Of a stretch of 55,454 bases of DNA, positions 7,457-53,215 are shown piece by piece. The notes beneath the pieces are model-generated. The model was not told where the DNA came from. It did no database searches and saw only the letters and a program-made list of their open reading frames with translations. A program made the position numbers and the translations under genes. Position 1 is the first letter of the stretch, and each line of letters begins with the position of its first letter. This stretch comes from Holophagae bacterium (GTDB lineage: Bacteria; Acidobacteriota; Holophagae; Acanthopleuribacterales; Acanthopleuribacteraceae): the NCBI GenBank assembly GCA_029263455.1, contig JAJCXM010000011.1:1-55454 (forward strand), written 5' to 3'.

Positions 7457-7575
7457 GGACCGTAAAGCCCGAGACATAAGCACCACACTTTCTGATTTGA
7501 TAGAACAGAGATCGATTCCCCGAATAGTAAGAATCAAGTGTTTACAAGCTATTTACCCGTTGGCGTCCCGCTAAT
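7457..7575 (-). repeat. Family B (RAYT leader) repeat, diverged
   Basis: It contains CCCGAGACATAAGCACC, a diverged GATTTGAT core, ATCAAGTGTTTACAAGC and the end GGCGTCCCGCTAATG. Read on the minus strand it is a RAYT 5' leader with the ATG in ..GCTTATGTCTCGGG. It directly abuts the broken parE toxin. Confidence 0.6.
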
Positions 7576-23079: not shown

Positions 23080-23433
23080 GGCTCAGATCAATCGGTGACC
23101 CCAACCCACCCCTCTCTGCGAACGATTGCAAAGCGGGTTTTTCTCAAGCGGAGTGCGAAGTCGACAGGAGCCTAAGCGACTGAGGCAGCGCTTTCGCCGA
23201 AGAGATTGAATGAATTGAAGAGACCCGGTCTGTGAATCGAGCGCAGCGAGGTTCGCAAGCGACAAGGCAGGGGAGTTGCGCGTGACTTCAAGGCTACGTA
23301 CCCGAAGCACCTCTCTGCGTTCGATGCCCGGTGCGAGCTCTTCAGTGTGGCAGGCACCTCGGCCAAAGCGGTACCTCAGTCGCTCGGGCTCCTGTCGATA
23401 CCGCACTCCGCCGGAGGAGGTGGTTTCATGCCT
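23080..23433. repeat. Family D repeat, 354 bases, copy 1
   Basis: It matches 30506-30859 over its full length at high identity. Near each end it carries inverted copies of CGACAGGAGCC.. GCGACTGAGG (23160-23190 and the inverse near 23365-23400). It ends with GGAGGAGGTGGTTTCATGCC directly against a RAYT 5' remnant. The same D-to-RAYT junction is found in the second copy. No coding potential is supported. Confidence 0.8.
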
Positions 23434-23591
23434 GTATTTCCTGAAAGATCCATTCCTTGCTGACATCGTAATCAAACAAGAAAGCCTGCTTACCGCGCCA
23501 TAGCTTAAGCGAAGGCGGAACACACGGTGCGGTTCATAACGTGATAAGCCTGCCCGTCAAGATGCGACTTCAAACGACAAATTCGTGCCAT
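23434..23591 (-). pseudogene. RAYT transposase 5' remnant with an embedded palindrome
   Basis: Read from the ATG at 23591 it encodes MARICRLKSHLDGQAYHVMN and RTV, nearly the start of the intact RAYT at 48793, preceded by the same TTTGAGGGGGAACTT leader. An insertion containing CGCCTTCGCTTAAGCTATGG brings stop codons in frame. Homology then resumes (VSKEW-like) until the family D boundary at 23434. The leader homology continues to about 23660. Bases 23661-23848 show nothing further. Confidence 0.85.
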
Positions 23592-23848
23592 AAGTTCCCC
23601 CTCAAAGAAAAATGGTTGATGGTATGTCTAAAACATGGTTCCTTTGATCCCAGAAATCAAGCTGAAATCAGCCATCCAGTATCAGTCAGGATTTCAAGAA
23701 TAGGTTATAGGCTTGGCTCACAACAACGTGTCCTCATAAAACTTTCTTTTCGACTCACCTTCTCCGTTGCTTGACCTCCAAGACCCCAACTCCGCGATGA
23801 TATCGCTCTCATCCCTCGATGCACGCCAATGACCGTCGTACCAAGGCT

Positions 23849-29984: not shown

Positions 29985-30177
29985 GCTTAAGTTAAAGCTG
30001 TAGTGTCCCGCTGTAGCTACTCGCTTAAGGACGTGATAAGCCTAACCACCTAAATGAGGCTTCAAACGTTGAAATCCGAGACATAAGCACCTCTCTGGCT
30101 GAATTGATGGAGAGAGCAGGGGTTCCCCCATCGTGAGAATTAAGTATTTACAGGTGATTTACCGGGGGTGTTCCGCT
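29985..30177 (-). repeat. Family B (RAYT leader) repeat plus a short solo end
   Basis: TTAAAGCTGTAGTGTCCCGC at 29990-30010 is a solo family B end. The next copy runs from ACGTGATAAGCCTAACC at 30031 through AAATCCGAGACATAAGCACC and TTGATGGAGAGAGC to GGGTGTTCCGCTAAATTT. It is more diverged than the copies beyond 33 kb. Confidence 0.65.
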
Positions 30178-30505
30178 AAATTTTCTTCCTGATGCCTTAC
30201 GCCGTAGAGGCCGGAGGCCGAATGTCCCGGTAGCCCACTCCGATGCCGACGCAGTCGGGTGAGGGGTGGGTAGCGATGATGAGAGTAGCAAGAGCCCAGA
30301 GCGCAGCGCCGGGCGACTGATGCCTAACCGCCGGAATTCCAATCAAAGCCCCAGATGTCTGCTAAACGTCTCATTTCATCGTCAAAAGAATGGATGGTGC
30401 TCTTCCTGATCCTCGACATACCGTTTGACGGCGCGTATTTGGTTTTGGAGCACGAAAACGCGCCATTAACCCCATGTGATATCAATCGCCCGTCGCTGCG
30501 CTCTT
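30178..30505 (-). other. Spacer with a possible cassette scrap
   Basis: On the minus strand 30323-30422 reads MSRIRKSTIHSFDDEMRRLA, then DIWGFDWNSGG and a TAG in GGCGGTTAGGCATC, which looks like an attC core. This could be a small cassette end, cut by family D on its 5' side. The rest (GCCGTAGAGGCCGGAGGCCG) is an unassigned G+C-rich repeat. Confidence 0.3.
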
Positions 30506-30859: not shown

Positions 30860-30988
30860 TATTTCCTGGTAAATCCACTCTTTGGTGATGTCGCGCCATA
30901 GCTTAAACGAAGGCGGGGCGCACCGTGCGATGCATCACGTGATAGGCCTGACCGTCTAAGTGCGATTCAAACGTGAAACCCGAGACAT
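30860..30988 (-). pseudogene. RAYT 5' remnant with an embedded palindrome, frameshifted
   Basis: From the ATG at 30988 it encodes MSRVSRL, then a one-base deletion shifts the frame. GCCCCGCCTTCGTTTAAGC is the palindrome also found inside the remnants at 23434 and 45441. A further 25 bases of RAYT sequence are missing. It ends in family D at 30860. Confidence 0.75.
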
Positions 30989-31086
30989 GAACACCCCACC
31001 TGGCTGAGTTGATGGGCTAAATATGGGTTCCCAAATAGGATAAATCAAGTGTTTATAGAGTTTAAAGCTGTGCTGTCCCGCTGTAG
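30989..31086 (-). repeat. Family B leader, TGTCCCGCTGTA end
   Basis: This is the non-coding leader of the RAYT remnant above: CACCCCACCTGGCTGAGTTG, ATCAAGTGTTTATAG and GTGCTGTCCCGCTGTAG. The CACCCCA..TGGG arms form a small hairpin near the transposase start. Confidence 0.8.
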
Positions 31087-33160: not shown

Positions 33161-33327
33161 GGAACGTCACGTGAAAAGTGTTCACTAGGCCTGACCATCT
33201 AAATGTGACTTCAAACGTGAAACCCGAGACATCCCCCTCACAAGCTGAGTTGATGAGGCAAACATGGGTTCGCAAGCATGAAAAGCCAAGTGTTTACTGG
33301 CCTTAATGATGTGGTGTCCCGCAGTAG
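33161..33327 (-). repeat. Family B repeat with both ends
   Basis: Left end GGAACGTCACGTGAAAAGTG, then the RAYT start in antisense (CTAAATGTGACTTCAAACGTG), the leader, and the end GTGTCCCGCAGTAG. The ~165-base unit keeps only ~20 RAYT codons. It joins the truncated DUF4349 gene at 33328. Confidence 0.8.
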
Positions 33328-34073: not shown

Positions 34074-34242
34074 GGGACACGTCACGTGAAAAGTAGTCAC
34101 TGCGCCAACATCTAAATGAGACTTCAAACGTGAAACCCGAGACATAAGCACCCCACTGGCTGAATTGATGGGGCAAACATGGGTTCGCAAATCGAAAAAA
34201 TCAAGTGTTTATTGGCCTTAACGATGTGGTGTCCCGCTGTAG
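34074..34242 (-). repeat. Family B repeat, complete 169-base copy
   Basis: It starts GGGACACGTCACGTGAAAAG and ends GTGGTGTCCCGCTGTAG. GGGACAC/GTGTCCC form a seven-base terminal inverted repeat. Inside are CATCTAAATGAGACTTCAAACG (RAYT codons in antisense) and the CACCCCA..TGGGG hairpin. It truncates the cassette gene to its right. Confidence 0.85.
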
Positions 34243-34648
34243 TGTCCCTCTTTCCGGCCGAGTTGACTTGAAACTCGTAGACACCATCGGGCACCGCTAT
34301 AAGAGGGTACCCTAGCTGGTCGTCCATTCCCCCAGGGGCGAAGACTGAACCCTCTTCGGTAGTGCGGCCCGAGAACTGATCGGCGTGGCCGCCAGCGATC
34401 TCGGGATCTCCAGCCTTCATGCCGGCGAGTGCGGGAACATAGCCCGGGAGCCACGACGGCCAAACCATCTCTGCTGAGCGATGAGCGAAGGAAATGAAGC
34501 TTTGATCGCTCACGAAGAACGAGCCAAGATACGGGTCGGATTCGATACGCCAGACAACGCTGCGGACGTGCCCCACGAGCTGAGAGTACACAGGCCACCC
34601 ACAGTCAGCAGCCTCAAGACGCTGGATCAGGTCTTCTGGCCTCGCCAC
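34243..34648 (-). pseudogene. Integron cassette gene, 3'-truncated by family B
   Basis: GTG at 34648 follows TTGGAGGTGAA. The product starts ARPEDLIQRLEAADCGWPVY and runs to YEFQVNSAGK, then enters the repeat end (RDTTAGHH..). I do not recognise the family. A 63-base attC lies just upstream of it on its own strand, so it was the downstream neighbour of the next cassette. Confidence 0.65.
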
Positions 34649-34731
34649 TTCACCTCCAATGCTGAGCCCAAGTTGCCGCAGGACCGCCGAGCTTCGGACA
34701 CTCCCCAAGTGTCAAGGAGATTCCCAACGCC

Positions 34732-36142: not shown

Positions 36143-36217
36143 GCCTAACGGCTGGAATTCAGCGGCCAGGGCACTCGCGGAGCGTGCGGTAGGGTCCGCC
36201 GCAATGATTCGTTAGGC
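36143..36217 (-). other. attC site 3
   Basis: Cores GCCTAAC (36143) and GTTAGGC (36211) are fully complementary. The antitoxin stop codon TAA lies inside the right core, a common cassette arrangement. Confidence 0.85.
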
Positions 36218-36988: not shown

Positions 36989-37051
36989 CAAGAGCTCCCG
37001 ATGCGGAAATCAAGTGTTCATTGGACTTAAAGCTGTGGTGTCCCGCTGTAG
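36989..37051 (-). repeat. Family B repeat, right end only
   Basis: GATGCGGAAATCAAGTGTTC and GCTGTGGTGTCCCGCTGTAG. The RAYT start and left part are missing. It truncates the gene to its right. Confidence 0.75.
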
Positions 37052-37351
37052 CGCCGTCGACAACATTTTTGCCCTTGTTTGATCTGGCACATTAACCCAG
37101 ATTGTGGCACTTGACAGCTTTAAAGTGATGCCTAAACCAGAAGCTACGACATTAACAATTTGATTGAACCAGTCCGAGTGATCCCACTTTCTCGGAGTTG
37201 GAGCTAAGAAAGCTTTTACTTCATTATCCCAGTAAAAATCAGCCGCCTCTCGATAAATATATTGATACATAGGCTTGCCGCCGCTTGCGAGCACGACAAA
37301 CATTTCTCCGTTTTCCAGTATCTCAATTTTGGATATTTCTTCGATTTCCAT
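37052..37351 (-). pseudogene. Integron cassette gene, 3'-truncated by family B
   Basis: ATG 37351 encodes MEIEEISKIEILENGEMFVV and a body up to DQTRAKMLST, then joins the repeat end (ALQRDTTALSPMNT). The family is not recognised. attC 4 lies directly upstream, so this was a cassette of a minus-strand array. Confidence 0.65.
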
Positions 37352-37357
37352 AGCGAC

Positions 37358-37414
37358 ACTTAACGCCCAAGTTCAGGTGCCAGCTTGCTGGTCACCTGCA
37401 GCGCTTTGTTAGAT
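37358..37414 (-). other. attC site 4
   Basis: Cores ACTTAAC and GTTAGAT flank CAGGTGCCAGC/GCTGG.CACCTG, a nearly perfect stem with one extrahelical T. Confidence 0.8.
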
Positions 37415-37564: not shown

Positions 37565-37674
37565 TTGTGTCCCGCTGTATCCTTCTTACCACGAGCTGAG
37601 TTGATGGGGTGAATATGGGTGCCTAAACAGCAAAAGTCAAGTGTTTACTGGCCTTAGTGATGTGGTGTCCCGCT
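37565..37674 (-). repeat. Two adjoining family B ends
   Basis: GTTGTGTCCCGCTGTA at 37566-37581 is one end. A second, partial copy (GAGCTGAGTTGATGGGGTG to GATGTGGTGTCCCGC) follows at 37593-37674. Confidence 0.75.
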
Positions 37675-38890: not shown

Positions 38891-39031
38891 CTTCACTGAT
38901 TCAAGGATTTCCTGGTAAATCCACTCTTTGGTGACGTCGTCGTCAAAGAAGAACGATTCACGCACCGTTCGATTCATCACGTGATAGGCCTGCCCATCTA
39001 AATGAGACTTCAAACGTGAAGCTCGGGACAT
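38891..39031 (-). pseudogene. RAYT 5' remnant, open frame
   Basis: ATG 39031 encodes MSRASRLKSHLDGQAYHVMN, RTVRESFFFDDDVTKEWIYQ and EIL without a stop, homologous to the first 46 residues of the RAYT at 48793. It then breaks off. This copy lacks the embedded palindrome. Confidence 0.85.
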
Positions 39032-39127
39032 AAGCACCCCACTAGCTGAGTTGATGGGCTAAATATGGGTTCCCGAATAGTAAAAATCGAGTGTTTATTG
39101 GGTTTGAAGCTGTGGTGTCCCGTTGTT
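39032..39127 (-). repeat. Family B leader
   Basis: CACCCCACTAGCTGAGTTG, TCGAGTGTTTATTGGG and GTGGTGTCCCGTTGT. It is joined to an intI scrap at 39128. Confidence 0.8.
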
Positions 39128-39180
39128 GTAGCCTGTCAGTGAATCGAGAATTGAAGCGTTTCTCACCCATCTCGCCGTGG
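39128..39180 (+). pseudogene. intI: Integron integrase (intI) scrap
   Basis: GTGAATCGAGAATTGAAGCG and TTTCTCACCCATCTCGCCG encode SESRIEAFLTHLAVD, the same N-terminal intI segment as at 46940-46980 and 52780-52820. It is followed by the same family B end (TGGGCTTAAAGTTGTGGTG) as the 46.9 kb copy. Confidence 0.75.
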
Positions 39181-39348
39181 ACTGGGCTTAAAGTTGTGGT
39201 GTCCTGCTGGAGTCTCTAAATGAGACTTCAAACGTGAAACCCGAGACACAAGCACCCCACCTGGCTGAGTTGATGGGGTGAATATGGGTTCCTAAACAGC
39301 AAAAATCAAGTGTTTATTGGCCTTAATGATGCGGTGTCCCGCTGTAGC
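39181..39348 (-). repeat. Family B end plus a complete family B leader
   Basis: GGGCTTAAAGTTGTGGTGTC is an end; then CTAAATGAGACTTCAAACG to GCGGTGTCCCGCTGTAG. The arrangement is nearly identical to 46981-47144, so the two loci are segmental copies. Confidence 0.8.
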
Positions 39349-45204: not shown

Positions 45205-45440
45205 TTTCTATGTGATCTGTCCCCAAGAATTCCTGTCGATACTCGCACTCCGTCGGAAGACGCTTCAACCTTCGTTTAACTTCTTCGCGTTCCTGGCCCG
45301 TGTAGCCGTGTTGTTCTCGTTCGCTTTCAAGCACGTTGGCGGAGTTCACGTCGCGCCAGGTGATGGCTTTGATGCCGTGGTGTCCCGCTGTATCGCCTGG
45401 GTTATAAACCACGTTTCACGCGATACGTCCCCAAATTTTA
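45205..45440 (-). other. Mosaic spacer with family B and RAYT-element ends
   Basis: It contains GCCGTGGTGTCCCGCTGTA (45376-45394) and TTTCACGCGATACGTCCCC (45412-45430), the latter resembling the right inverted repeat of the RAYT element at 50036. A minus-strand open frame between them (LERLPTECEYRQEF-type) is not recognised. Confidence 0.5.
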
Positions 45441-45592
45441 CCTGTTAGATCCACTCTTTGGTGACGTCGTCGTCAAAGAAGAACGATTGCTTGCCGCGCC
45501 ATAGCTTAAGCGAAGGCGGGGCGCACCGTTCGGTTCATAACGTGATAGGCCTGACCGTCCAAGTGCGACTTCAAACGTGAAACCCGAGACAT
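45441..45592 (-). pseudogene. RAYT 5' remnant with an embedded palindrome
   Basis: ATG 45592: MSRVSRLKSHLDGQAYHVMN and RTVR, then the CCGCCTTCGCTTAAGCTATG insertion stops the frame. RAYT sequence resumes (SFFFDDDVTKEW) and breaks off at 45441. The insertion point is the same as in the 23434 and 30860 remnants. Confidence 0.85.
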
Positions 45593-45688
45593 AAGCACCC
45601 CACTAGCTGAGTTGATGGAGAAAATATGGGTTCCTAAACAGCAAAAATCAAGTGTTTGTTGGCTTTAATGCTGCGGTGTCCCGCTGTA
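45593..45688 (-). repeat. Family B leader
   Basis: CACCCCACTAGCTGAGTTG, AATCAAGTGTTTGTTGG and GCGGTGTCCCGCTGTA. It truncates the SUKH gene to its right. Confidence 0.8.
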
Positions 45689-45978
45689 CCGCTCCAGTAG
45701 TAGTAGAGCGCACCGTAATCTGACTCAAGGACCGACAGGAACGTTCGGTAACCGAAGAAGTTGATGGCGATTGGAACGAGTGCCACGTCTACCAACTCCA
45801 ATTCGCTCGGAGGTATGAAGTCGTCGATCACGGCTGGGCCAAAAGGCGTGGGCTCTTCGGCCTCGACAGAAACTCCCGGATCCAAGAACAGGTCACCGAG
45901 TGCGTCGACGTATTCTTTGTACAGTCTTGGTAGCTCTACACCGAGACGGTGTTCGACGTCAGTCCACGACATCTTCAA
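45689..45978 (-). pseudogene. SUKH (SMI1/KNR4) cassette gene, 3'-truncated by family B
   Basis: MSWTDVEHRLGVELPRLYKE and YVDALGDL are the N-terminal signature of SMI1/KNR4 proteins, and PIAINFFGYRTFLSVLESDY, then GALYYYW, the central strands. SUKH proteins are often toxin-neutralising immunity proteins. The frame then runs into the repeat (SGTAGHRSIKANK). Start ATG 45978 or 45972. Confidence 0.78.
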
Positions 45979-46019: not shown

Positions 46020-46652
46020 TTACTGCGACTCAATTTTCAGATTCCTGCAGGCAGTTTTACTGGTGGGTAAGTAGACGCTCTCCGCTGGGGTAACAAGATT
46101 CTCATACGGAGGACTAACGTGGGCCCTTTCAGCTTCAACGAACTCACTGATGTCCGTGATGGAGATGCACTCTTCCTGGCCATAGCGACGGAGGATCTCG
46201 CCACGGAGACCGAGCTGAACCGCCCGCCGTTCGACCTTGATGCCAGCGGGATCGTGATCCGGATCCCATTGCAGCCGCACCGACGATTCTTGAACGGCCG
46301 ACTGCCACTCGTCTCGGGTGTTGAACAGGGAAGGGTCGAAGCTTGATGGCACTGCGGCCTCTAGGATTTCCTCGAAAAAGGTACGACTTAGCCTGACCGC
46401 CAGCGTTACCTCCTGACCCGACTTGGTGCCCCAACCTGAACGGTACATCATCCAGAGAAAATTGGGTTTAACCCAACTCATGCGCGTGAAGCTGAAGGCC
46501 CCACCGAACCGCCCATGCTCAGCTGCATAGTGGCCGATCTCGGGGCGATAGGCCTGATACACGACGATGGACTCCTCATCGTGCTGAGCAAGGATGTGAC
46601 GCCCAGAAGGTGGCCAGCGTCGCGACTGGTCTGTGTAGTTCTCGGTTCTCAC
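46020..46652 (-). CDS. DUF4291 protein, first cassette at attI copy 1
   Basis: GTG 46652 gives RTENYTDQSRRWPPSGRHIL. The family core is IVVYQAYRPEIGHYAAEHGR, SWVKPNFLWMMYRSGWGTK and VRLQWDPDHDPAGIKVERRA, then VQLGLRGEILRRY. DUF4291 proteins are of unknown function and recur as gene cassettes. Its 5' side meets attI at 46683. Confidence 0.88.
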   Translation of the reverse strand: MRTENYTDQSRRWPPSGRHILAQHDEESIVVYQAYRPEIGHYAAEHGRFGGAFSFTRMSWVKPNFLWMMYRSGWGTKSGQEVTLAVRLSRTFFEEILEAAVPSSFDPSLFNTRDEWQSAVQESSVRLQWDPDHDPAGIKVERRAVQLGLRGEILRRYGQEECISITDISEFVEAERAHVSPPYENLVTPAESVYLPTSKTACRNLKIESQ

Positions 46653-46682
46653 GCTTCGGATACCACGCGATCCCGGCCGCCT

Positions 46683-46782
46683 AACCACTGATTATCATGT
46701 TGATGGACCTGATAAGTTGTTAATTTGTTTGGTCTTCTTCATAATGCCCTGAACGAATATCACACTAGCAGTGGGGAATTCG
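46683..46782 (+). other. attI site and intI promoter region, copy 1
   Basis: From AACCACTGATTATCATG onwards the sequence is nearly identical to 52522-52620. Left of this triplet the two loci differ completely (cassettes). This is exactly the pattern of G^TT crossover at attI. The segment leads straight to intI. Confidence 0.8.
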
Positions 46783-46980
46783 ATGGTCAAGCAAAATACA
46801 GGGCTGATGGAAAACGTTCGCAATACGCTACGACGAAGGCATTACTCCATTCACACGGAACGTAGTTATTGTGACTGGATCCGGCGCACCATTCATTTCC
46901 ATGGGTTCAAGAATCGCGAGGATTTGTTTCGGGACGGTGAATCGAGAATTTAAGCGTTTCTCACCCATCTCGCCGTGGAC
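46783..46980 (+). pseudogene. intI: intI fragment, copy 1, nonsense-mutated and truncated
   Basis: MVKQNTGLMENVRNTLRRRH, then YSIHTERSYCDWIRRTIHFH, matches the N-terminal SAM-like domain of integron integrases (LRRKHYSIRTE..YxDWI..FI.FH). GAA has become TAA at 46951-46953; AFLTHLAVD follows in frame, then the gene is cut by family B. All catalytic R..H..R..Y residues are missing. Confidence 0.85.
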
Positions 46981-47144
46981 TGGGCTTAAAGTTGTGGTGT
47001 CCTGCTGTAGTCTCTAAATGAGACTTCAAACGTGAAACCCGAGACATAAGCACCCCACTTGGCTGAGTTGATGGGGTGAATATGGGTTCCTAAACAGCAA
47101 ATATCAAGTGTTTACTGGCCTTAGTGATGTGGTGTCCCGCTGTA
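46981..47144 (-). repeat. Family B end plus a complete family B leader
   Basis: GGGCTTAAAGTTGTGGTGTC, then CTAAATGAGACTTCAAACG to GTGGTGTCCCGCTGTA. Duplicate of 39181-39348. Confidence 0.82.
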
Positions 47145-47322
47145 CCGCCCCCTGCGGCGAACGGAATGGGCATGGCAGAGCTTGGCGCTGGGGTCTGAGT
47201 CGTATTGCCGAGGTGTGATTCAGCGTTTCAAGTTGCAATCGCCAGGACTCAATCAACCGTTTGAGTTGGGTTCAGGCCTATGCAACACACATATGCGAGC
47301 TGGCCCGCATTCAACTAAATAA
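47145..47322 (+). pseudogene. RAYT 3' remnant
   Basis: The plus frame RRTEWAWQSLALGSESYCR, then FKLQSPGLNQPFELGSGLCN and THMRAGPHSTK, is the C-terminus of the 48793 transposase with two substitutions. It starts right at the TGTCCCGCTGTA junction. Confidence 0.88.
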
Positions 47323-47667
47323 CGCTTCGGGCTACTGAAACCAACCGCGTTTTTGGTTCGTTGCTGGCGAACAGGGGATAGATACGTCCAGAGTGACGGC
47401 CTAAGCGAACCAAGCAAGCATTTTGGTCAGATTACTTGACGATCGAAACAACATATCCCAGAACTCGGCTGATTCACGGACACATTTCAGTCGTCGCGTG
47501 CTTGGAGAAAAGGAAACGGCGCTTCAAGTCCGAAATCTGCCAGATCATGACCAGGAAATCGACCAGAAAGCCGAGGTGAGGTCGAAATGATGGATCGCAA
47601 TCTCATTGGTAATGCTCAAAGTTGGCTCATAGACTAGGTTTCACGTGATACGTCCCCATAAATTTCT
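47323..47667 (+). repeat. RAYT element 3' non-coding tail, copy
   Basis: Nearly identical to 49729-50061, with a ~12-base insertion around 47452 (AACATATCCC) and point changes. It ends in TTTCACGTGATACGTCCCC. Contains AACCAA.CGCGTTT.TTGGTT and other small inverted repeats; no open frame. Confidence 0.82.
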
Positions 47668-48641: not shown

Positions 48642-50061
48642 ATTTTATAGGGACGTATCACGTGAAATGTGGTCTATTACCCATCTTCTATATTGTGCCT
48701 TGCAAGAGTTGGCCATCTTCACTTGATTTCTGATCTCACAAGACCCATGTTCTAAACATCACCAATCACCATATTTCTTTGAGGGGGAACTTATGGCACG
48801 TATTTGTCGTTTGAAGTCGCATCTGGATGGGCAGGCTTACCACGTCATGAACCGCACCGTACGGCAGGCGTTCTTGTTTGATGACGATGTCAGCAAGGAG
48901 TGGATCTATCAGGAAATATTGGCGTTGGCCAAGATCTATACGGTCGACCTGCACGCCATTGCCGTTATGAGCAATCACTATCACATCATCTTGACCGTGC
49001 TGAAACCTGTGCTGACGGAAAAGGATGTGGAAGCCCGTTTTGCGCGATACCAGCGTCGATTACGTCATCCACAGAAGTGGTACGAATGGCGATTCGAGGA
49101 ATGGGCAACCCGCCTATCGGACCTTTCGCGCTTCATGCAGGACCTGAATCGGTCGATAGCCCACTACGTCAATGGCCGTGATCAAGCTAAAGGGTCGCTT
49201 TGGGGCGACCGCTTCAAATCAACCCTCCTCGACGATGGTGACGGGTTTCTGCGCTGTATGGCCTATGTGGAAATGAACCCTGTGAAGGCTGGTCTGTGCC
49301 AGAAACCGTCAGAATATCGATGGTGTTCCATGGGCCGATTCCATCGTGGTGGTAAGAAGGCAGCCGGCGTCGCCTTCCCCAAAATCAAGGGTTTTGATTT
49401 TGCTAAGACAACGGCTCAAAGACAGAAAGCGTTTCGGATCTTCCTCGATCACCTAGCCGACCGTGAGCATGACCTAGATAGCAAATTGGAAGTCGACATG
49501 GTCGAGTTGCAGAAAGCGCTCTCGTCTTGGAAATTGGACGAACTGGCTGACTGGGTGTTACGCCGAACGGAATGGGCATGGCAGAGCTTGGCGCTGGGTT
49601 CGGAGTCCTACTGTCGAGACGTTATCCGGCGTTTCAAGTTGCAATCGCCCGGACTCAATCAACCGTTTGAGTTGGGTTCAGGCCTGTGCAACACACATAT
49701 GCGAGCTGGCCCGCATTCAACTAAATAACGCCTCGGGCTACTGAAACCAACCGCGTTTTTGGTTCGTTGCTGGCGAACAGGGGAATAGATGCGTCCGAAG
49801 TGGCAGCCTAAGCGAACCAAGCAAGCATTTTGGTCTGATTACTTGACGATCGAAACAGAACTCGGCTGATTCACGGACAAACTTCAGTCGTCGCGTGCTT
49901 GGAGAAAAGGAAACGGCGCTTCATGTCCGAAATCTGCCAGATCATGACCAGGAAATCGACCAGATAGCCGAGGTGAGGTCGAAATGATGGATCGCGATCT
50001 CATTGGCATTGCTCAAAGTTGGCTCATAGACTGGGTTTCACGTGATACGTCCCCATAAATT
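48642..50061 (+). mobile_element. Complete RAYT-bearing element with terminal inverted repeats
   Basis: GGGACGTATCACGTGAAA at 48650-48667 and its perfect complement at 50036-50053 bound the element; similarity extends through flanking A+T bases to about 26 bases. It holds a 5' leader, the transposase, and a ~330-base 3' tail. Fragments of each part recur across the window, so this is a plausible master copy. Confidence 0.8.
48793..49728 (+). CDS. REP-associated tyrosine transposase (Y1/HUH, IS200-like)
   Basis: The ATG follows GAGGGGGAACTT. RLKSHLDGQAYHVMNRTVR starts the Y1 fold. The HUH metal site is in AVMSNHYHIILTV. The catalytic Tyr is probably in RCMAYVEMNPVKAGLC. At 311 residues it is longer than the usual ~150-220, with a C-terminal extension from ~residue 195 that includes a helical RRTEWAWQSLALGSESY segment. 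It would nick and join single-stranded DNA at hairpin ends. Confidence 0.92.
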   Translation: MARICRLKSHLDGQAYHVMNRTVRQAFLFDDDVSKEWIYQEILALAKIYTVDLHAIAVMSNHYHIILTVLKPVLTEKDVEARFARYQRRLRHPQKWYEWRFEEWATRLSDLSRFMQDLNRSIAHYVNGRDQAKGSLWGDRFKSTLLDDGDGFLRCMAYVEMNPVKAGLCQKPSEYRWCSMGRFHRGGKKAAGVAFPKIKGFDFAKTTAQRQKAFRIFLDHLADREHDLDSKLEVDMVELQKALSSWKLDELADWVLRRTEWAWQSLALGSESYCRDVIRRFKLQSPGLNQPFELGSGLCNTHMRAGPHSTK

Positions 50062-51386: not shown

Positions 51387-51450
51387 GCCCAACGAGTTGG
51401 CCGTTCATCGGTCGGGCGAAGCGCGGTCCGTCTGCAACGGCTGGTTAGGC
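51387..51450 (-). other. attC site 8
   Basis: Cores GCCCAAC (51387) and GTTAGGC (51444) flank GTTGGCCGTTC/GGCGAAGC and CGGTCCG arms, an imperfect palindrome. Confidence 0.7.
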
Positions 51451-52474: not shown

Positions 52475-52521
52475 TCCCTTGATTCCTCATGTACAAAACC
52501 AACAAACTGGTGGTTCGCAGA

Positions 52522-52620
52522 ACCACTGATTATCATGTTGATGGACCTGATAAGTTGCTAATTTGTTTGGCCTTCTTCATGATGACCTAAATAAATATCA
52601 CACTAGCAGTGGGGAATTCG
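52522..52620 (+). other. attI site and intI promoter region, copy 2
   Basis: AACCACTGATTATCATG, GATGGACCTGATAAGTTG and ATCACACTAGCAGTGGGG match 46683-46782. The left side carries a different cassette. Confidence 0.8.
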
Positions 52621-52832
52621 ATGGTCAATAAAAATGCATGGCTGACGGAAAACGTTCGCAATACGCTACGACGAAGGCATTACTCCATTCACACGGAACG
52701 TAGTTATTGTGACTGGATCCGGCGCCACATCATTTCCTTGGGTTCAAGAATCGCGGGGATTTTTTTTCAGGACAGTGAATCGAGAATTGAAGCGTTTCTC
52801 ACCCATCTCGCCGTGGACAAGGACCAATCCCT
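52621..52832 (+). pseudogene. intI: intI fragment, copy 2, with two compensating indels
   Basis: MVNKNAWLTENVRNTLRRRH and YSIHTERSYCDWIRR match copy 1. Between 52722 and 52770 the frame shifts and returns (HIISLGSRIAGIFFQDSES instead of TIHFHGFKNREDLFRDGES). EAFLTHLAVD and KDQS follow, then the gene is cut by GGGACAG, the left end of family B. Confidence 0.85.
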
Positions 52833-53002
52833 GGGACAGATCGCGTGAAACCTAGTCACTGGGGCATTGTCTAATTGAGACTTCAAACGTGAAACCCGAG
52901 ACATAAGCACCCCACCTGGCTGAGTTGATGGGGTGAATATGGGTTCCTAAACAGAAAAAATCAAGTGTTTATTGGCCTTAATGATGCGGTGTCCCGCTGT
53001 AC
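52833..53002 (-). repeat. Family B repeat, complete 170-base copy
   Basis: GGGACAGATCGCGTGAAACC to GCGGTGTCCCGCTGTA, with RAYT codons in antisense (TCTAATTGAGACTTCAAACG) and the CACCCCA hairpin. Same layout as 34074-34242. Confidence 0.85.
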
Positions 53003-53009
53003 CCTCATT

Positions 53010-53215
53010 GTCTTTGGCATTGCTCAAAGTTGGCTCATAGACTAGGTTTCACGTGATACGTCCCCATAAATTTGCTTCAAGTCCGAGATCTGACAGATCA
53101 TGACCAGGAAATCGACCAGAAAGCCGAGGTGAGGTCGAAATGATGGATCGCAATCTCATTGGTAATGCTCAAAGTTGGCTCATAATCTAGGTTTCACGTG
53201 ATACGTCCCCATAAA
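53010..53215 (+). repeat. Tandem RAYT element 3' tails
   Basis: Two partial copies of the tail, each ending TTTCACGTGATACGTCCCC (53046-53066 and 53192-53213), like 50036. The first is ~50 bases, the second ~145. Confidence 0.82.

Follow-up and report, generated by a model that had tools for sequence, protein, structure and literature searches.

The usual picture of RAYTs is one of domesticated transposases that do not move. The preliminary description of the locus analysed here started from the premise that RAYTs lack long terminal inverted repeats (TIRs), which is outdated: a RAYT-like gene inside long TIRs has been known since 2013, when Di Nocera et al. (PMC3733652), in the part of their paper used here, described RAYT-like genes with long flanking TIRs under the names TIRYTs/TIRtrons. 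In the same part, families of TIR repeats occur as single copies, dimers and clusters, and the TIR motif GGGGWSAS is found in some, not all, of the TIRYTs described. Quentin et al. 2018 (PMC6006769) assigned 20 of 26 TIRYTs to subclass 2.1. The members of subclass 2.3, which is not among the TIR-flanked proteins listed there, are characterized as long proteins with many copies and no REPs. According to a 2021 paper (PMC8266576), there is no evidence of mobility for tnpA-REP genes, which are mostly single copy.

We analysed a window of 55,454 nucleotides from a Holophagae bacterium (contig JAJCXM010000011.1), in which a unit of about 1.42 kb occupies positions 48642-50061. The inverted repeat core, GGGACGTATCACGTGAAA, lies on the plus strand at one end of the unit and its exact complement at the other. 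With up to 3 mismatches, GGGACGTATCACGTGAAA had 8 matches in the window against 0.02 expected from shuffles. The 18-bp core is part of a 44-nt imperfect inverted repeat with 82% complementary arms, and local alignment of the 5' flank with the reverse-complemented 3' flank scored 48, against a maximum of 25 in 200 shuffles. The perfect 18-bp TIRs, the 1.4-kb unit and the 311-residue transposase with a long 3' tail that had been reported for this locus were all borne out (Table 1). A simple hairpin scan extending up to 1 kb from the transposase gene revealed no REP hairpin having a GT[AG]G foot, and folding of those element ends that were tested (44-73 nt) gave no hairpin signal above chance. 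Recognition of the ends is therefore likely to depend on the repeat sequence rather than on subterminal hairpins of the IS200/IS605 kind.

Table 1. Positions of the element, its broken copies and related solo ends in the window
Feature	Position	Strand	Remarks
5' terminal inverted repeat arm, 44 nt	48644..48687	+	perfect 18-nt core 48650-48667
Y1/HUH transposase, 311 aa, intact	48793..49728	+	NHYH at 61-64, catalytic Y158 in YVEMNP
3' tail, 333 bp, stop codon to element end	49729..50061	+	similar tail lengths, diverged sequence in sister subfamilies
3' terminal inverted repeat arm	50016..50059	+	perfect core 50036-50053; element terminus ...ACGTCCCCATAAA
5'-truncated element copy, 92% identical	47155..47664	+	ORF nt 769-936, full tail, 3' TIR
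Solo 3' end, last 62 bp of tail, 97% identical	53011..53072	+	
Solo 3' end, 142 bp of tail, 93% identical	53074..53215	+	tandem with 53011..53072
Solo 3' end, 36 nt	45398..45433	+	TIR, one mismatch
Solo 5' end, C24-type sister element (5' UTR, ORF start), 86-93% identical	23430..23738	-	
Solo 5' end, subfamily B, TIR TACAGCGGGACACC	52870..53006	-	adjoins truncated integrase fragment
Subfamily-B 5' remnants, about 12 in window	7482-7574, 30021-30181, 30861-31082, 33186-33322, 34109-34238, 37007-37047, 37590-37674, 38899-39122, 39215-39343, 45513-45685, 47013-47141, 52870-53006	-	

The protein matched Pfam Y1_Tnp (PF01797) above the cut-off and NCBIfam REP_Tyr_transpos below it (64.4 vs 80 bits). 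Its HUH motif reads NHYH and its tyrosine motif, YVEMNP, follows the class-2 (TnpA-REP) pattern Y---NP; both the HuH and the Tyr are kept across family members. The spacing between them is 97 residues; long relatives from gammaproteobacteria have 113, and short, subclass-2.1-like proteins have 61. In the tree, the protein clustered with copies from its own genome and with relatives from its own genus, and the gammaproteobacterial long forms, the short forms and E. coli RayT were placed elsewhere, with the deep branches poorly resolved. The comparison with IS200/IS605 and RAYT groups proposed in the preliminary description thus suggests a clade of its own near Quentin subclasses 2.1 and 2.3, the subclass labels of our reference proteins being derived from motifs, length and host and not from a published list. 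Profile comparison related the family to long and short forms alike. A sequence search of the PDB gave no match, and AlphaFold, run from a two-row alignment, gave no usable model (pLDDT 34).

DNA- and protein-level searches of the same genome found 43 family matches, about ten of them long and about 30 of them remnants, with copies on more than 10 contigs; judging from these matches, the family is multicopy and most of its copies are decayed. The preliminary description had allowed that no second full copy might exist anywhere, but a TIR-bounded one is present on contig C24. This is the closest long copy (83% DNA and 92% amino acid identity), with a TIR of its own (TATGGGGACACGTTG) and nearly the same geometry, 148 bp from TIR to ATG and 326 bp after the stop codon, compared with 149 and 331 in the window copy. 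Contig C34 carries a third, weaker TIR pair, and both TIRs are clear only in the window and C24 copies. Homology begins at GGGAC at 12 A-type loci (1 at a contig end) and ends at GTCCC(C) at 14 3' ends, 9 of which read GTCCCCATAA; the flanks outside both boundaries are unrelated. A sister subfamily in the same genome, B, has the terminus TACAGCGGGACACC. It had also been asked whether the inverted repeats are shared with unrelated loci; repeats found elsewhere, where assignable, are ends of the same family.

Outside this genome, contig L096 of another metagenome-assembled genome (MAG) carries an element with 86% DNA identity and an identical 3' terminus, its 5' end being lost. The contigs concerned (JAJDCL010000022-25, L096-L098) contain the family at up to 93% amino acid identity and come from a MAG labelled Candidatus Saccharibacteria. 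One of them has an exact 64-bp stretch in common with C24, and the label or the binning of that MAG is therefore probably wrong. One scan of genome contigs found three loci only, all from this MAG, which is probably contaminated. A search of viral contigs and phages found no family member, and a plasmid search found distant relatives only (<35% identity). When the TIR test was applied to controls, subclass-2.1-like elements showed TIRs, and one gammaproteobacterial long-form copy was barely above shuffles. A long gammaproteobacterial relative on a Pseudoalteromonas HL-AS2 plasmid (L099, 2833-2864 and 2899-2930) has a 22-nt TIR (GACACCCA...) with a tandem second 5' end, stacked as in the window; a direct repeat of roughly 110 bp lies outside both TIRs.

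The tail had been said to recur at 47323 and twice near 53.1 kb, and it does, with 92% identity over 47323-47664. The first copy, however, begins earlier, at 47155 inside the ORF (from nt 769 onward), and the list lacked one further 3' end of 36 nt (Table 1). The truncated tails start beside subfamily-B 5' ends of opposite orientation, at 47141/47155, where the copy adjoins a sister-element 5' end, and at 53006/53011. The recurring tails are broken copies, and for those that begin at an inserted sister 5' end, nested insertion and deletion are the most likely cause of the break. LINE-like 5' truncation and one-ended (IS91-like) transposition are unneeded for these tails, which begin at the sister 5' end; either could still account for other solo-tail copies. 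Tandem 3' ends occur at 53 kb in the window, as two ends on C24 and as two in L096, which may point to a preference for insertion beside existing ends.

Subfamily-B solo 5' ends are scattered over 7.5-53 kb of the window and recur at four sites in C8:181-211 kb of the same genome; every one is on the minus strand, and the 3' part is missing from nearly all. Three genes, at 34124-34708, 37010-37351 and 45634-45978, have C-termini that run into a subfamily-B TIR. The segment from 30 to 53 kb contains attC-like sites (RYYYAAC...GTTRRRY, strong folding) at 36143-36217, 37358-37414 and 51387-51450, together with truncated integrase fragments. The sites lie near small genes, for example one encoding DUF4291 (46020-46688) and others with weak SUKH/SMI1 matches, and the region is probably a chromosomal integron cassette region. 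An N-terminal integrase fragment is present in three copies (39126-39182, 46678-46980 and 52516-52818), of which one was scanned and matched Phage_int_SAM_4. All three break off at roughly the same position, and a subfamily-B 5' end in inverted orientation comes next. It looks as if this composite of integrase fragment and subfamily-B end has been duplicated, with one boundary at the TIR.

In the reading that we consider probable, the unit is an autonomous transposable element, a TIRtron of about 1.42 kb that is moved by its own TIRYT acting on its TIRs. The TIRYT, a RAYT-like Y1/HUH tyrosine transposase, would recognise the element's own TIRs and move the whole TIR-to-TIR unit, presumably by Y1 HUH single-strand cleavage and joining. 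The family would have spread through the genome long ago, and repeated insertion, nesting of subfamilies and deletion would account for the 5' ends and 3' tails that now stand alone. We infer that the TIRs are the substrate of the transposase and that past movement went by transposition, not recombination; the single-strand mechanism would follow by analogy with the enzyme family.

The window copy gave a dN/dS of 0.046 against the C24 copy and of 0.084 against the L096 copy; the transposase is under strong purifying selection (0.05-0.08). It has been kept functional while the tails of the window and C24 copies diverged until they could be aligned at their ends only. The preliminary description had proposed a RAYT that still mobilises its own gene. 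Mobilisation of the whole unit is the best reading of the sequence data, given the full second copy, the sharp boundaries that copies share, the purifying selection and the intact catalytic residues, and a transposase of this type probably moved its own gene in the past. The data gave no sign of the present-day activity implied by "still". Values of dS were 1.10 (window-C24) and 0.43 (window-L096), the family copies thus appearing old (0.4-1.1), and no near-identical copy was found in the element's own genome; with dS of at least 0.4 to its closest relatives, the window copy has not transposed recently. Searches for an empty site, by joined flanks in its own genome and with the C34 flanks in a same-genus genome, found nothing comparable. 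A Pseudoalteromonas locus was rejected as an empty site: two other strains lack the transposase between the ACT-domain and methyltransferase genes, but they also lack two neighbouring genes. Near-identical copies could have been collapsed in the assembly, since a number of contigs end within a copy, but the exact overlaps at those ends were just 55 bp and 115 bp long. Some of the similar copies could also derive from horizontal transfer and not from transposition.

The purifying selection would also be compatible with a host function, and a domesticated TIRYT is the first alternative to weigh. Here the transposase would be kept for a host function, as has been suggested for tnpA-REP genes, the TIR ends alone or nothing would still move, and the TIRs would be vestiges of an ancestral transposon. 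The family members on C38, G001 C33 and G001 C10, in which the TIR test detected no TIRs, fit this explanation, as does the picture of tnpA-REP genes as mostly single copy and lacking evidence of mobility (PMC8266576). Against it, this gene is multicopy and accompanied by numerous remnants with sharp boundaries in common. Moreover, the window and C24 tails can now be aligned at the end only, so that perfect 18-bp TIRs would probably not have persisted without recent function. We therefore regard domestication as unlikely.

With no transposon at all, copies could have spread through homologous recombination and segmental duplication within an integron-like region rich in repeats, the TIRs being a coincidence or the result of gene conversion between ends. 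The segmental repeats of integrase fragment and subfamily-B 5' end at three places in the window favour this explanation, but it hardly accounts for copies on more than 10 contigs with unrelated flanks, for boundaries that fall at TIRs and not at random points, or for TIRs far above chance, and we consider it quite improbable. An IS200/IS605-family insertion sequence (subclass 1.1), for which the Pfam Y1_Tnp match and the HUH motif could speak, is contradicted by the motif and end tests (YVEMNP, class 2, instead of Y---Q; 311 aa vs about 150; long TIRs; subterminal hairpins not beyond chance) and by the long branch between the family and the IS200-like protein of the same genome, and is extremely improbable.

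Returning to the TIRtron reading, a multicopy family with its transposase gene inside conserved TIRs and a selected coding sequence argues that at least this branch behaved as real transposons. Whole-unit mobilisation is mildly notable because mobility of tnpA-REP genes is unreported (PMC8266576), and the circumstantial evidence for it is better here than in PMC6006769, PMC8266576 and the part of PMC3733652 used here. A wider reading, which we offer only tentatively, is that the long-TIRYT lineage with the 97-residue HuH-Tyr spacing consists of self-mobilising TIR-bounded transposons; these would be evidence for mobility of class-2 TnpA-Y1 tnpA genes, with insertion favoured beside existing termini to yield tandem ends. 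The TIRs of 18-44 nt are concrete substrates for a biochemical test of cutting by a TIRYT.

Taken together, the sequence comparisons indicate that the element is a further TIRtron whose protein lineage is not identical to subclass 2.3. Like the TIRYTs/TIRtrons in the part of PMC3733652 used here, it has a RAYT-like tyrosine transposase with long TIRs and no GTAG REPs, and the genome contains TIR ends that lie alone or in clusters. The absence of REP hairpins within 1 kb and of a hairpin signal above chance at the ends examined is as expected of TIRYTs. GGGGWSAS fits C24 GGGGACAC in full and the window 3' end GGGGACGT at 6 of 8 positions; the window 5' end reads AGGGACGT. The family differs from the elements in that part of the paper in its greater number of near-full copies, its 3' tail of 333 bp and its longer protein, which carries a core insertion. 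RAYT/REPtrons (E. coli RayT, subclass 2.2) likewise encode a class-2 Y1 HUH enzyme with Y---NP, but the present element is multicopy and TIR-bounded, and REP hairpins with a GT[AG]G foot are absent within 1 kb of its gene. It shares with subclass 2.1 the flanking TIRs, a Y-E-x-N-P motif, the absence of REPs and a C-terminal extension, but subclass 2.1 proteins are about 235 aa long, have a spacing of 61, are insertion-free and lie on another branch of the tree. With subclass 2.3 (PMC6006769) it has in common a long protein (311 aa vs a median of 325), NHYH, extra residues between HuH and Tyr, many divergent copies per genome and the absence of REPs. From the signature of that subclass (NHYH, W-E, YVDLNP and a 55-aa insertion between beta3 and alphaC) the window protein retains NHYH, but it has WG instead of WE, YVEMNP instead of YVDLNP and a spacing of 97 instead of the 113 of gammaproteobacterial long forms, and it falls in a separate clade.
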